In this document: in pieces, positions 9,246-15,464 of the stretch
How positions within the stretch are numbered: position 1 is the stretch's first letter
Layout of the letters: each line of letters begins with the position of its first letter
The notes under the pieces: model-generated
What the model was told of the DNA's origin: nothing
Databases searched by the model: none
Seen by the model: only the letters and a program-made list of their open reading frames with translations
Position numbers and translations under genes: made by a program
NCBI GenBank assembly: GCA_017472665.1
Contig: JAFUOS010000017.1
Coordinates: forward strand, 1-33,641
Source: Tyzzerella sp.
GTDB lineage: Bacteria; Bacillota; Clostridia; Lachnospirales; Lachnospiraceae
Length of the DNA stretch: 33,641 nucleotides
Direction of reading: 5' to 3'

Positions 9246-10058
9246 ATGAAGACATCGATTGAGCATAAACTGTGGCTCTTAGCAATGCAAGGACACATTA
9301 CTCCGGATAAGAGTCTTTTGAAAACACCAGAGCAGATTGAAGGCATTCGCAAGAGTGCAGAATTAAATACTGCTGTTTTGGATCATGTAGCAAAACACAT
9401 CAAGGCAGGCATGAGTACTGCTGACATTGATAAGCTTGTATACGATTACACAACAGAACATGGTGGAATTCCAGCACCTCTCGGATACGAAGGATTCCCA
9501 AAAAGTGTGTGTACATCTTTAAATAATGAAGTTTGTCACGGAATTCCTGATGAAAATATTATCCTTGAAGAAGGGGATATTATTAATGTAGATGTTTCTA
9601 CTATTTTAAATGGATATTATTCTGATGCATCCCGTATGTTTGCGATTGGGAAGATTTCAAAGCGGGCGCAGCGACTTTTGAAGGTTACAGAGGAATGTGT
9701 GAAACGCGGGCTTGCTGCAGCGAAGCCTTGGGGACATCTGGGTGATATCGCAGATGCGATTAATAGTCATGCGCAGGCAAATGGGTACTCTGTGGTGGAA
9801 GATATCGGTGGTCATGGAATTGGACTTGAATTTCACGAGGAACCTTATGTGAGTTATGTGGCACCGAAGGGGACGGAGATGGTGCTGGCTCCTGGGTTGA
9901 CGTTTACGATTGAGCCTATGATTAATGAGGGAAGTCCGGATTTTTTTGTTGATGAGGATAATGGGTGGACGGTTTATACGGAAGATGATGGGTTGTCGGC
10001 GCAGATTGAGTATATGGTGCTGGTGACGGAGGATGATGTGGAAGTGTTGACGAAGTGA
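9246..10058 (+). CDS. map: type I methionine aminopeptidase
   Basis: A 270-residue dinuclear metallopeptidase that removes N-terminal methionine from new proteins. All five metal ligands and the conserved substrate histidine are visible: H98 (EVCHGIP), D116 (INVDVS), D127 (YYSDASR), H190 (GGHGIG), E223 (TIEPMI) and E255 (AQIEYMV). An N-terminal extension of about 25 residues precedes the catalytic domain; it has no SEC-C cysteines. The start follows AAAGGAG by about 8 nt. The last third of the gene uses many G-ending codons, unlike the first part. Confidence 0.95.
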   Translation: MKTSIEHKLWLLAMQGHITPDKSLLKTPEQIEGIRKSAELNTAVLDHVAKHIKAGMSTADIDKLVYDYTTEHGGIPAPLGYEGFPKSVCTSLNNEVCHGIPDENIILEEGDIINVDVSTILNGYYSDASRMFAIGKISKRAQRLLKVTEECVKRGLAAAKPWGHLGDIADAINSHAQANGYSVVEDIGGHGIGLEFHEEPYVSYVAPKGTEMVLAPGLTFTIEPMINEGSPDFFVDEDNGWTVYTEDDGLSAQIEYMVLVTEDDVEVLTK

Positions 10059-10095
10059 ATTCTAAACATATTTGCTGAATCGTTTTAAAACTCAC

Positions 10096-10272
10096 GAAAG
10101 AATGTCTACCTATGACAAGTCTCGAAGCTCCGCTTTACCTTAGCTCATCCACGAATATGTAAGCCTCTGAGAGAGTCGCCGTGAGAGGCTCGTCTCTCAC
10201 AGACTAACATCTTCGGGATGTATCTTCGGAACGCTCCACTTACCTCGTCTTATCATAGGTAGACATTCTTTC
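10096..10272 (+). repeat. 177-bp structured element E1 downstream of map
   Basis: Two perfect 20-nt inverted arms (10096-10115 and 10253-10272) enclose 137 bp. Inside, GTGAGAG (10181-10187) pairs with CTCTCAC (10194-10200). The 50-bp core 10159-10208 matches the core of E2 on the other strand at 37 of 50 positions without gaps, and TCCACTTA at 10235-10242 is also shared at the same distance. The arms differ in sequence from those of E2. The element starts 38 nt after the map stop and is read in the same direction as map. It may be a structured 3'-end RNA, a complex terminator or a small mobile repeat. Confidence 0.8.
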
Positions 10273-10313
10273 TGAATCTTGTAAAACCGTTCAACAGATA
10301 AATTTACTAGTTC

Positions 10314-10344
10314 AACTTTGCCCTGAACCCCACTTAGCAAAGTT
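10314..10344. other. 8-bp hairpin between E1 and E2
   Basis: AACTTTGC (10314-10321) pairs perfectly with GCAAAGTT (10337-10344) around a 15-nt loop. It lies in the 92-bp spacer between the two larger elements. There is no T run, and its role is unknown. Confidence 0.5.
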
Positions 10345-10364
10345 CTTGAATTTATATACGCACA

Positions 10365-10540
10365 GAAGAAATAAATCTATATCCGAAGCGGAAGTTAAGT
10401 GGAATTGACGGAGAATCCGTCGTGTAGCCGTTAGAGTGTGGGATAGGAGTCCCTCACGACGACTATTCCAGACTCTTACGGATACTAGACTAGTCGAAGT
10501 CAATGGAGCATTGGAGTGAAGGATATAGATTTATTTCTTC
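10365..10540 (-). repeat. 176-bp structured element E2 downstream of cca
   Basis: Perfect 20-nt inverted arms (10365-10384 and 10521-10540) enclose 136 bp. Read on the minus strand, its 50-bp core (10430-10479) aligns with that of E1, and TCCACTTA (10396-10403) lies 26 nt from the core exactly as in E1. It begins 9-10 nt after the cca stop and is oriented with cca, so each element follows its own upstream gene. Shared outer motifs are AACnnACGAA before the first arm and TTCTG at the far end. No believable coding frame exists inside. Confidence 0.8.
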
Positions 10541-10549
10541 GTACGTTTA

Positions 10550-11884
10550 TCAATTCGAATTTATTGTTTTTCTTAAACGCAGCAACGTTTCTTTCGTATT
10601 CAATTCCGGATTTTCAATGACCATTTCTAGCAAGGTGTTCAGCACATAACCGATTTCCTTGCCCGGCTTCATACCATCAGCAATTAAGTCACTTCCGGAA
10701 ATCGCCAAATCTTTCAGTGATACACACTCTTTTTTCTCCAAAATTTCTCGATAACATTCTTCTATGTCGCGAATATTCTGTAGTTTTTCTTCGCGCATAT
10801 ACTCGCTCTGAGCCAGCGTATCGGCCGTGCGCACTTCCAAATAATACGGAAATAAATCTTCCCCAATCTTATTCATCGCTTTCCGCACACGCTTTGGCTC
10901 TGCCGGAATCCGGTAATCGTGATATTGGACAAGCTTTGTCACCTTTCCAAGTGTGTCGTTATCGAATTTCAGTCTTCGCAGGATAGATTTTGTTATTTCT
11001 ACACCTTTGACATCATGCATTTTAAAATGTGCAACTCCATTCGCATCAATGGTTTTCATCATTGGCTTTGCAATGTCGTGGAACAGCATCGTCAGACGCA
11101 ATACTTTATCCGGGCGGATTGTTTCAATTGCCTTGAGTGTATGCTCGCCCACAGAATAAATGTGGTGCGGTGTTTCCTGTTCTGTCTTCATCATCTCGTC
11201 AAACTCTGGCAAAATAACTTTGGTGATTCCCAGTTCATATGCTGTCCGAAGTAATGATGGATTCGGCGAAACTAGCATTTTAATCAGTTCTACTTGAATT
11301 CGTTCTGCGCTGATATTTGCCAAGGTTGGCGCCAATTTCACAATGCCTTTTCGGGTTTCTTCTTCAATTTCGAATCCTAATTGGGCTGCAAAACGCACTG
11401 CTCGCAGGATACGAAGGGCATCTTCACCGAAGCGTGCTTCTGCGTTGCCCACACATCGAATTGTCCTGTTGTTCAAGTCTTCGATTCCGCCAAAGATATC
11501 TACCAGACCTTCTTCATCGTTGTATGCCATCGCATTAATGGTAAAATCACGGCGCAGCAAATCCTCCTGTAAACATCTGGTGAATGTCACCTCTGATGGG
11601 TGTCTGCTGTCTTCATATTTTCCGTCTACGCGATAAGTGGTTACTTCAAATGCATCTTTATCGATAAGGACTGTGATGGTTCCATGCTCGATCCCGGTAT
11701 CAAAAGTTCGTGGAAATAATGCCTTTGTCTCTAGCGGTGTGGCAGAGGTTGTGATGTCCCAGTCGTCCGGAGTCCTGTCCAAAATAGAATCGCGGACGCA
11801 GCCACCCACAGCATAGGCTTCGTAACCATTTTTCTGTAGTGTATGAATGATTTGACTTACTTTTTGTGGTAAATTTATCTTCAT
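10550..11884 (-). CDS. cca: CCA tRNA nucleotidyltransferase with HD domain
   Basis: A 444-residue class II tRNA nucleotidyltransferase that builds or repairs the 3' CCA of tRNAs. It has GGCVRD (residues 27-32), the two metal-binding aspartates in DDWDITT (D41, D43), RRDFTINAMAYN (about 111-122), the ERIQVEL motif and a C-terminal HD domain (H269, D270 in LTMLFHDIAKP). An ATG at 11938 is open in frame, but the start at 11884 is chosen because AAAGGAGG lies about 10 nt upstream and the family begins here. It follows proS by 83 nt with no visible terminator, so it is probably under the proline T-box. Confidence 0.94.
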   Translation of the reverse strand: MKINLPQKVSQIIHTLQKNGYEAYAVGGCVRDSILDRTPDDWDITTSATPLETKALFPRTFDTGIEHGTITVLIDKDAFEVTTYRVDGKYEDSRHPSEVTFTRCLQEDLLRRDFTINAMAYNDEEGLVDIFGGIEDLNNRTIRCVGNAEARFGEDALRILRAVRFAAQLGFEIEEETRKGIVKLAPTLANISAERIQVELIKMLVSPNPSLLRTAYELGITKVILPEFDEMMKTEQETPHHIYSVGEHTLKAIETIRPDKVLRLTMLFHDIAKPMMKTIDANGVAHFKMHDVKGVEITKSILRRLKFDNDTLGKVTKLVQYHDYRIPAEPKRVRKAMNKIGEDLFPYYLEVRTADTLAQSEYMREEKLQNIRDIEECYREILEKKECVSLKDLAISGSDLIADGMKPGKEIGYVLNTLLEMVIENPELNTKETLLRLRKTINSN

Positions 11885-11967
11885 TTTGATGCATCCTCCT
11901 TTCCATTTTATCAGGCTTCTCTTTATGAGACGTTCCATAGAAAACTCTTCATGCAGAATTTTAAGTT

Positions 11968-13710
11968 TTACGCGTGTGGTTCTACTTTTGCATTAATTTC
12001 TGCAAACAAAGCAGCTTTTAATTCCTGAATTTCAGAAACCGCTTGATCTAAATCCACTAATTTTGAAACACTCTTATCTCTTGTAGCTAACTCTACTTGA
12101 TTATTTTTCAAATTCTTTGGTCCAACAACGACACGAATCGGCACTCCAAGTAAGTCTGCATCCGCAAACATTGCACCTGCGCGTACTTCACGATCATCAT
12201 AGATTACTTCTACGCCAGCATTTTGCAATTTTGCATACAAATCGTCTGCAGCCTGTTTGCATTCTTCTTGGTCTGCACGCATACAGCACAGATGTACTTC
12301 CCAAGGTGCGATAGAAATTGGCCAGATCGGACCATTGTCATCATGTCTTGCTTCACAAACAGATGCTGCCAAACGGCCAACACCGATTCCGTAGCAGCCC
12401 ATAATTGGAGTCTGTGCATTTCCTTCTGCGTCTGTATATGTCATGCCCATAGAAGCAGAATATTTTGTTCCTAATTGGAAAATGTTACCCACTTCGATAC
12501 CACGTTTTACCTGGATGGTCTTCTTACCACATTTTGGACAAATTCCACCTGTTTTAATCTTAGATACATCTACATATTCCACTTCGCCGCAATCACGGGC
12601 AAGGTTTAAACCTTTGTAATGGTAGTCAACTTCATTGGCACCAGCCACCATATTTTCCATGCCTTTCAGTGACACGTCGTAAATGACTGTGCAGTCTGCT
12701 TTCATATCGTATGGACCTGTGAAGCCGGCAACAATGCCACTTTCTTCTGTTACTTCTGCTGGATGTACTTTTTCTCCAAGGTAATTGGTCAGTTTTGTCT
12801 CGTTTACTTCATAATCTCCACGTACAAATACGATTACATATTCGTCAGTCATGTTCTTCTGATACATTACCGCTTTACAAGAGTTTTCCACAGAAGCTCC
12901 AAGATAATTTGTCACTTCTTCAATTGTCTTGCAGTTTGGTGTGTATACTTTTTCTAATTCAGCCATTGGAAGAGTACCTGCATTGTCTACGCAGTTTTCT
13001 GCTGCTTCCATGTTTGCACGATAACCACATTCATCACAGATAACGATAGAATCTTCGCCTGCGTCAGCTAACAACATGTATTCGTGTGAGATGCTTCCGC
13101 CCATCATACCTGAGTCGGATTGTACTGCAATCACTTCCGGCACACCAGCACGTTGGAAAATACGGTTATATGCCTTGTAACATACATCATAGTATTGTTC
13201 CAAGTCTTCCTGTGAAGTATGGAAAGAGTACGCATCTTTCATTGTAAATTCTCTTACACGAATAAGGCCGGCACGTGGTCTTGCTTCGTCGCGAAATTTG
13301 GTCTGAATCTGGTAAATCATAAATGGATATTTTGTGTATGTCTGTCCGTATTCTCTTACGAGATGCACTGCTGCTTCTTCGTGAGTCATACCGAGTACCA
13401 TCTGGCTGTCGTTTCTGTCTTTGAAACGGAGTAATTCTTCGCCAACGCTTTCGAAACGGCCTGATTCTTCCCACAGGCTTCCCGGGAGTGCTACTGGGAA
13501 CAATACTTCCTGTCCGTCAATTGCATCCATTTCTTCGCGGATGATTTGTTCAATTTTCTTTGTGATTCTTTTCATTGGCGGGTATAAAGAATAGATACCA
13601 TTTGCTACATATTTGATGTAGCCGCCACGTACGCTGAATGCATGACTGTCGATCACGCAGTCGGAAGGACGTTCTTTAAAACGATCGCCAACAAGATTTC
13701 TTAACTTCAT
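11968..13710 (-). CDS. proS: prolyl-tRNA synthetase, bacterial type with editing insert
   Basis: A 580-residue class II synthetase that charges tRNA-Pro. Motif 2 is seen in FRDEARPRAGLIRVREFTMKDAYSFH (around residues 138-163). Motif 3 is in GCYGIGVGRLAASV. Between them is the roughly 180-residue INS editing domain typical of the bacterial form, and the anticodon-binding domain follows at about 470-570. The start is preceded by AAGGAG. Expression is predicted to be controlled by the T-box leader at 13816-14058, which senses uncharged tRNA-Pro. Confidence 0.96.
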   Translation of the reverse strand: MKLRNLVGDRFKERPSDCVIDSHAFSVRGGYIKYVANGIYSLYPPMKRITKKIEQIIREEMDAIDGQEVLFPVALPGSLWEESGRFESVGEELLRFKDRNDSQMVLGMTHEEAAVHLVREYGQTYTKYPFMIYQIQTKFRDEARPRAGLIRVREFTMKDAYSFHTSQEDLEQYYDVCYKAYNRIFQRAGVPEVIAVQSDSGMMGGSISHEYMLLADAGEDSIVICDECGYRANMEAAENCVDNAGTLPMAELEKVYTPNCKTIEEVTNYLGASVENSCKAVMYQKNMTDEYVIVFVRGDYEVNETKLTNYLGEKVHPAEVTEESGIVAGFTGPYDMKADCTVIYDVSLKGMENMVAGANEVDYHYKGLNLARDCGEVEYVDVSKIKTGGICPKCGKKTIQVKRGIEVGNIFQLGTKYSASMGMTYTDAEGNAQTPIMGCYGIGVGRLAASVCEARHDDNGPIWPISIAPWEVHLCCMRADQEECKQAADDLYAKLQNAGVEVIYDDREVRAGAMFADADLLGVPIRVVVGPKNLKNNQVELATRDKSVSKLVDLDQAVSEIQELKAALFAEINAKVEPHA

Positions 13711-13815: not shown

Positions 13816-13870
13816 AAAAAACGCCGGGCCTTTCCATCCCTCTAAAAAGGGACCGAAAAGCTCGGCGGTA
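13816..13870 (-). terminator. conditional terminator of the proS T-box
   Basis: The CGCCGAGC/GCCCGGCG stem has one mismatch, an inner CCCTTTTTAGAGGG hairpin and a following T run. Its 5' arm overlaps the T-box antiterminator sequence, as required for a switch. Confidence 0.85.
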
Positions 13871-14058
13871 CCACCCTAATTAATTATAGAAGCAAGTTCT
13901 ACAATTCTCTTTCTCATCATTAACGCTGATGTGACGCTGCGTTTTCACACAGGGGCTCCAAGGTAGGTTCCATACATTTCTTGCAAGAATCTCACACCAA
14001 ATGATTCTCTCTCTGGGGCGCGTCCTGTGTGTACTAGTCCTTTTCATAGCCTTGTTTG
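13816..14058 (-). promoter_or_regulatory. T-box riboswitch, proline specificity
   Basis: On the minus strand the T-box core AGGGTGGTACC (13867-13877) is present, with the UGGN bulge reading UGGU, compatible with the A discriminator of tRNA-Pro. Upstream is a Stem I region with a long helix (AGAGAATC with GATTCTT). The specifier loop GAA-CCT-A places the proline codon CCT at 13965-13967. Downstream, CGCCGAGC and GCCCGGCG form the alternative terminator with a T run at 13816-13821. Uncharged tRNA-Pro should favour the antiterminator and switch on proS. Confidence 0.93.
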
Positions 14059-15410: not shown

Positions 15411-15452
15411 AATCAGAAAGAACGTCCATCTATGTCAAACGGACGTTCTTTC
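15411..15452 (-). terminator. spoVG terminator, short relative of element E1
   Basis: Perfect 12-bp stem (15416-15427 with 15441-15452) around a 13-nt loop, 12-13 nt after the spoVG stop. Read with spoVG, the ends AACTCACGAAAGAACGTCC and ATAGATGGACGTTCTTTC match the two ends of E1 (AACTCACGAAAGAATGTCT and ATAGGTAGACATTCTTTC), including the non-palindromic AACTCAC flank and the TGA that follows. It looks like E1 without its 137-bp interior. Confidence 0.75.
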
Positions 15453-15464
15453 GTGAGTTAGAAA

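Follow-up and report, generated by a model that had tools for sequence, protein, structure and literature searches.

The region between the converging genes map and cca of a Lachnospiraceae bacterium (Tyzzerella sp.) holds two large, unlike hairpins placed head to head, which raises the question of whether such a pair is a structured RNA, a terminator, or part of a mobile repeat. The window, i.e., the whole stretch of DNA that was analyzed (33,641 nt), comes from a MAG of 1.66 Mb in 29 contigs with a completeness of 65% (G000). In this window, map, a Peptidase_M24 gene (9246-10058, plus strand), converges across the composite formed by hairpins E1 and E2 on cca (10550-11938, minus strand), whose product has a PolyA_pol head and RNA-binding domains. 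Based on the comparative analyses described here, our preferred reading, with a probability of about 0.6, is that E1, the spacer, and E2 together make up a single copy of a REPIN/BOX-like mobile heterodimer, which is non-autonomous and whose structured hairpins are unusually large.

Re-measurement exactly reproduced the lengths, arms, core likeness, motif spacing, and arm-to-core distances given in an earlier sequence-only reading. E1 (10096-10272) is 177 nt and E2 (10365-10540) 176 nt long, and each is closed by perfect 20-nt inverted repeats that differ in sequence between the two hairpins, those of E1 extending to 24 nt with one mismatch. The cores agree at 37 of 50 positions in the best ungapped 50-mer (E1 from 10159; E2 minus strand from 10479), as against at most 27 of 50 in the best match to E1 of shuffled E2 sequences (n = 40). 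In both hairpins TCCACTTA lies 26 nt past the core, and the distance from arm to core is 43 nt in E1 and 41 nt in E2. The same reading had treated E1 and E2 as two elements; they turned out to be the outward-facing halves of one composite (approximately 10064-10570) with terminal repeats of its own. Its left terminal repeat (10064-10095), a degenerate AATTTGGATTTGTTGAGTTC...TTCACGAA, was aligned with 13 other left ends of the same genome, several of which are likewise degenerate, and its limit was set by eye to within a few bases. The spacer (10273-10364; 92 nt) contains a small inverted repeat, AACTTTGC/GCAAAGTT, recognized by eye, and the right terminal repeat (10541-10570), also degenerate and delimited by eye, includes the cca stop codon (10550-10552, minus strand). 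The stop codon of map precedes the left repeat by approximately 5-7 nt. A probable E1 relic, consisting of two arms without a core, lies at 15414-15454 (BLAST match C10:15442-15471, E 0.17; sequence inspected by eye).

Folded with short flanks, both hairpins are far from chance on either strand (z -8.0 to -11.9). The structured direction had been read as plus for E1 and minus for E2, and folding energies point the other way: -95.2 kcal/mol on the minus strand versus -74.6 on the plus strand for E1, and -80.9 on the plus strand versus -72.5 on the minus strand for E2. This type of strand (E1 minus, E2 plus) was the better-folding one in 22 of 22 folded complete copies of the window's genome. 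A covariance model, R1, which was built from 22 copies of that genome and gave E1 192.5 bits on the minus strand and 52.4 on the plus strand and E2 192.8 bits on the plus strand, does not provide independent scores for the two window copies, since they were among those used to build it. What does not hold is the idea that each structured strand faces the same way as its gene; because E1 minus and E2 plus fold better, both hairpins lie antisense to the genes that adjoin them.

The composite is a repeat in its own genome, which contains, besides shorter pieces, 14 long matches to E1 (139 nt or more) and 15 to E2 (150 nt or more); several contigs end inside such matches, as repeats would cause. 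Copies are often arranged as E1-spacer-E2 within common terminal inverted repeats, complete units running from one terminal repeat through E1, whose folded strand points leftward, the spacer, and E2, whose folded strand points rightward, to the other terminal repeat. Likeness among the copies runs past the hairpins into a common terminal repeat, AATTTGGATTTGTTGA, and a longer form of its consensus occurs with up to three mismatches at 26 places (0 for the reversed control), at least two of which (C4:25239 and C22:39343) are not element ends. Four other composites of this genome have spacers of 186-447 nt. Some copies (C8, C20, C20s, C4b, and C4f) lack a core or a hairpin or are products of recombination, and cores lost in the way that palindromes would give are seen in C8 and C20s as well as in L232 and L234 of a second carrier genome, G179. 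Inspection by eye also revealed short repeated motifs (TTCTTACCAT, TTACCTGCT, and AAAAAGTCATTACAATTC) in the spacers of C4a, C1, C20, C3, and C7a of G000 and of L128-L132 of G179, which vary between genomes and even between copies. At one end (G000:C20:118852, L086), a possible insertion sequence starts within the terminal repeat, and the beginning of its predicted product presumably resembles IS256-type transposases.

Homologues in other genomes, for which the earlier reading had proposed a covariance-model search, were found in eight further genomes of the family sample. R1 matched 10 of 299 genomes at E <= 0.1, including G299 (E 0.065), whose match was absent on a repeat search at E 0.01; the confirmed genomes besides G000 have 46, 24, 8, 7, 5, 4, 1, and 1 matches. 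A wider model, R2, matched one of 391 genomes of a class-wide sample, namely G000 itself, and none of the 390 others; absences in the R1 and R2 searches of more than 40 genomes are soft, as strict filters were used and 7-9 candidates were scored per genome. The lowest E value in a DNA search of 40 relatives was 0.013. Among genomes of 84,980 species, the exact core pattern occurs in 26 stretches, the carriers being Lactonifactor longoviformis DSM 17459 (G157), an uncultured Dorea MAG (G255), and one further bacterium MAG, and it was not found in viral contigs. G157 is a culturable strain with 24 R1 matches.

The genome with 46 matches, G179 (99% complete), has a like plan built from other sequences, with outward pairs inside terminal repeats GGAATTTAGTATAGTAAG and hairpins 235-452 nt apart in the five pairs measured. 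All 12 pairs less than 1 kb apart, six in G000 and six in G179 (tallied by eye, in part from an analysis of 71 loci; a contig end truncates one pair in either genome), are outward (-,+), and so is a weaker thirteenth pair in G059 (L093). Identity between the arms of partners is 0.50-0.71 in G000 and 0.38-0.58 in G179 (five composites each), whereas random 24-mers reach 0.50 and arms of the same side 0.58-0.83; partners may differ since two equal hairpins would form one huge unstable palindrome. The 25 G179 composites with both ends in hand measure 365-853 nt. Such units resemble MITEs in having terminal inverted repeats, many copies, and a length too short for a transposase, and they resemble REPINs in having two inverted palindromes as the unit; there are also numerous hairpins that have no R1 partner.

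Several other structures were noticed at these loci. A second, larger type of long-armed hairpin (approximately 320 nt, with GGCTTAAG...CTTAAGCC arms; by eye) was seen in L157, L154, and other G157 loci, where it lies upstream of the R1 hairpin, on its inner side, and apparently occurs twice in tandem in L154. In mixed composites of G179 (L127, L136, and L232-L235), which end in GGAATTTGGTTCAGTGATTTT, the R1 hairpin has as its partner a third type of hairpin module (around GGAACTCATCAGGAGTTCC). In addition, five G179 loci (L112, L130, L134, L138, and L140) hold members of one protein family, which we take to resemble Rpn/YhgA-like nucleases, and the element adjoins what we assume to be the same gene, for a branched-chain aminotransferase, at L080 of G000 and L232 of G179, by chance or as a hot spot.

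With regard to genomic position, a converging open reading frame (ORF) stop lies within 60 nt of the outer edge in 37 of the 43 G179 hairpins tested (out of 46 matches), compared to 1 of 43 on the inner side and 530 of 4000 random positions, ORFs being defined from stop to stop with at least 80 codons and not as verified genes. A converging stop is present on both sides of 18 of the 25 complete G179 composites and on one side of the other 7, and in G255 it lies at 12-27 nt in 3 of 3 copies tested. These placement counts in G179 make the suggestion of a non-autonomous element landing at gene ends the best reading of those originally offered. Stop offsets from the repeat start in G179 cluster at -3, +5, +10, and +13, and also at -6 to -8; the first four correspond to stops provided by the repeat itself in three frames, which indicates that numerous ORFs stay open as far as the element. 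When the A-type repeat was shuffled over its first 16 bases, stops in all three frames appeared in 4.3% of cases. Contact is looser in G000, where 36 end-like sites (some of them due to chance) have a converging stop in the range -20 to +40 at 6 sites and -150 to +60 at 21. Insertion behind gene ends may have been followed by loss of the intervening DNA. A longer C-terminus of cca was also considered as proof of insertion at the stop and was dropped, because the ends of relatives vary by the same few codons.

The expectation that pairing would be kept while sequence changes was borne out at two levels. In an alignment of 22 copies from one genome (A2), 30 of 48 pairs show double changes. In an alignment of 27 copies from eight genera (A6; input of 24 loci, picked to keep out antisense matches of G000 copies), 96.1% of cells are paired versus 55.5% in shuffled and at most 40.7% in slid controls; A6 was also fitted to R1. 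Cells with a double change number 528 versus 148.6 in shuffled controls, and the covariation score is 0.973 versus 0.229 (shuffled) and 0.100-0.164 (slid); each of these three values was reached in 0 of 500 shuffles, and, since copies of the family are related, the changes and pairs counted are not independent of one another. Little can be drawn from the tally of doubly changed pairs (46 of 48 versus 41.6, reached in 1 of 500 shuffles) or from that of pair types (131 versus 126.7, reached in 91 of 500). RNAalifold on A6 predicted 49 pairs, much as in the R1-based structure. Common features across genera, judged by eye, include one-by-one mismatches at fixed positions and a purine-rich internal loop of the core, in which GAGGTTAAGYGGAG..CCGAAGATCC faces TAGCTGAGG...GCGGAACCTCG.

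The pairs also reveal a preferred strand. In a strand-symmetric self-fold of 87 copies, 190 G-U were counted versus 71 A-C, with 70 copies favoring G-U and 11 favoring A-C, and the mismatches are similarly uneven (A.G 258 vs C.T 17; U.U 91 vs A.A 23; G.G 59 vs C.C 6); the counts are unweighted and come from related copies. The bias is carried by G000 (37:6), G179 (113:51), G157 (28:2), and G187 (5:1), and is absent from genomes with few copies (G255 5:5, G059 1:2, G251 1:3, and G106 0:1; seven copies, 7:11). A2 gives 39 G-U versus 1 A-C with the predicted structure, a count biased by the prediction of that structure on the same strand. The strand favored by wobbles and mismatches is the one antisense to the adjacent gene. 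From this bias, one hairpin strand is probably under selection, as RNA or as single-stranded DNA.

This strand preference bears on the view that the copies are neutral palindromes, in which arm identity and covariation would come from template-switch repair without any selected structure. Such homogenization has been described, at least in the portions of the literature available to us (PMC8794818, PMC8604942). The arms of 14 of the 24 G157 matches agree with it: they span 41-66 bp, are 94-100% self-complementary, and are only 78% alike between copies, the cores being 91% alike. Each arm is one ungapped block despite this divergence, which means that length changes are mirrored in both arms, and the 13 mispairs left are 8 G-T, 2 A-C, 2 C-T, and 1 G-G; template switching between arms, selection, or both would give such arms. 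However, template switching would remove mismatches and ignore strand, whereas the core keeps fixed mismatches and its purine-rich loop across genera (by eye) and wobbles and mismatches favor one strand, and we therefore regard purely neutral palindromes as highly improbable. A host-owned 3′-end module is a less remote alternative, albeit still an unlikely one. It would act as a barrier between convergent genes (through end formation, protection from 3′ exonucleases, or a block on antisense read-through), with copies kept alike by gene conversion rather than transposition. The tight placement at stop codons in G179 would suit it, as would the location of each folded strand at the far end of a read-through transcript, the stem and T-run that follow cca in three of six relatives (by eye), and the lack of an intrinsic terminator in the window composite and in two scanned G179 composites. 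Against it stand the many copies, the terminal inverted repeats, and the patchy distribution (8 of the 298 family-sample genomes besides G000). Furthermore, of the 27 TIR-like ends of G000, 6 have terminator-like stems within 80 nt (1 of 27 on the other strand; 59 of approximately 3000 random stretches); aimed at the element and placed 7-47 nt before it, they look like insertion behind a terminator and not like a needed terminator. The earlier suggestion of a complex bidirectional terminator is not supported, as far as a terminator in the usual sense is concerned: the window composite has no stem with a T-run and one promoter-like site (1.0 in shuffles), and in five other composites promoters and terminators are at chance level, with 0, 0, 0, 1, and 0 terminator-like matches, the single weak one being in L059. 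A doubtful further reading makes the folded outward strand a functional RNA of a new class, with a purine-rich loop, that would aid its own spread, either by copying through RNA or by a host enzyme reading the fold, and would form the 3′ ends of the facing genes, whose stop codons it may supply at a new site. In line with the earlier reading, no Rfam family matched the element above the gathering threshold in 10 loci and the window, and a search at E <= 1 returned a single hit, due to chance, to a microRNA family of plant type. The only hit above the gathering threshold in the window is elsewhere, an ordinary T-box leader (RF00230, 112 bits; 13845-14056, minus strand) upstream of an aminoacyl-tRNA synthetase gene at 11968-13710.

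Two further alternatives name the enzyme. The plan of two inverted palindromes and a spacer is that of a REPIN, as given in the accessible part of its description (PMC3116915), and the strand bias would fit recognition of hairpins in single-stranded DNA by a RAYT (Y1) transposase. Y1_Tnp matches occur in seven of nine hairpin genomes; however, they are missing from G000 (65% complete) and G251 and present in seven of the eight genomes searched that have no hairpin, and the RAYT link is not supported. A cognate RAYT flanked by the hairpin was likewise not found, there being no R1 match in seven Y1 loci, six of them from hairpin genomes, and it is short palindromes of the GGGACG type that adjoin the four long Y1 genes examined. 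We know of no REPIN plan that includes terminal repeats outside the hairpins. GTAG or CGTC adjoins some hairpins and not all (by eye). Taken as a REPIN proper, the element is thus very unlikely. With their GGGACG-type palindromes, the Y1-transposase genes (L225-L228) form another REP-like system of these bacteria, distinct from the element. We also regard a MITE derived from an IS630/Tc1-type transposon with a TA target as very unlikely: 47 of 70 ends in G179, and about half of those in G000, have TA in front of the repeat, but TG takes its place at 16 of 70 G179 ends, and the DDE_3 domain (PF13358) was found in none of nine hairpin genomes and in three of six others, so that this candidate is not supported either. 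No clear target duplication was seen at G179 or G000 ends. No empty site was found, map and cca not being side by side in any of eight same-genus relatives of G000 that have both (some pairs lie on separate contigs; the genus of G179 is represented by G179 alone). Searches by end motif in G000 and G179 and by recurring ORFs beside hairpins detected no autonomous copy and no transposase with these ends; the A-type end has 45 sites in the 99%-complete G179, of which a subset was opened, and the genome-wide search covered the A-type only. Among the 14 largest clusters of recurring ORFs, most read as frames of the repeat itself, and others are presumably related to ABC-transporter, S1-like, MATE, and nuclease-like proteins.

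In the reading of a non-autonomous mobile heterodimer, the mobile unit would consist of two non-identical, very large hairpins in inverted order inside short terminal inverted repeats. The G179 composites (365-853 nt) do not have the length that a usual transposase would need. The likeliest mechanism is that an enzyme encoded elsewhere copies the unit in trans. The composite would settle in the 3′ regions of genes, where it is found between facing genes, and in G179 a gene running into the element would still be ended by the stops that the outer ends carry in all three frames. The folded strand (E1 minus, E2 plus) would be kept by one-strand selection, as RNA or single-stranded DNA. Owing to the outward orientation of the two partners, RNA read through from either gene would have the folded form at its far end, immediately ahead of the opposite gene, and a fence between facing genes is a plausible use of this arrangement. 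The mobility of the composite is an inference, as would be any use to its host.

Compared to known systems, the composite is closest in plan to REPINs, which, as far as the accessible text of the sources goes, are mobile, gene-less extragenic units of two palindromes in inverted order, dimers of unlike palindromes being known as well (PMC3116915, PMC3733652). Like REPINs and BIMEs, it is an inverted palindrome doublet without a gene; it differs in the size of its hairpins (approximately 177 nt and more, versus 20-40 bp for REPs with a GTAG or CGTC tag), its conserved internal core, its outer terminal repeats, its contact with gene ends, and the lack of any RAYT link found. Most of what is known of repeat doublets in bacteria concerns tiny palindromes with a link to RAYT enzymes. 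ERIC/IRU sequences of enterobacteria are also large intergenic (imperfect) palindromes, of more than 100 bp, but single ones and not doublets, a separation made by description and not by sequence. The pneumococcal BOX, RUP, and SPRITE repeats are MITE-like (BOX being modular), have predicted RNA folds, and are over-represented between convergent genes, in all of which the composite resembles them; SPRITE lies close to gene 3′ ends and ends in a uridine-rich tract, which the window composite lacks, and the available parts of the source describe no head-to-head double hairpin, the comparison being one of descriptions and not of sequences (PMC3049150). A description of the present family was not found among titles and abstracts of the open literature, which is no proof of absence.

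Given a REPIN-like plan that differs in size, core, ends, and the missing enzyme, the family appears to be a variant beyond known REPINs, with hairpin doublets of far greater size that retain their pairing as the sequence changes and for which no enzyme was found. As the carrier Lactonifactor longoviformis DSM 17459 is culturable, whether the family spreads as DNA or by way of its folded strand is directly testable, and the family bears on how facing genes fare without ordinary terminators.
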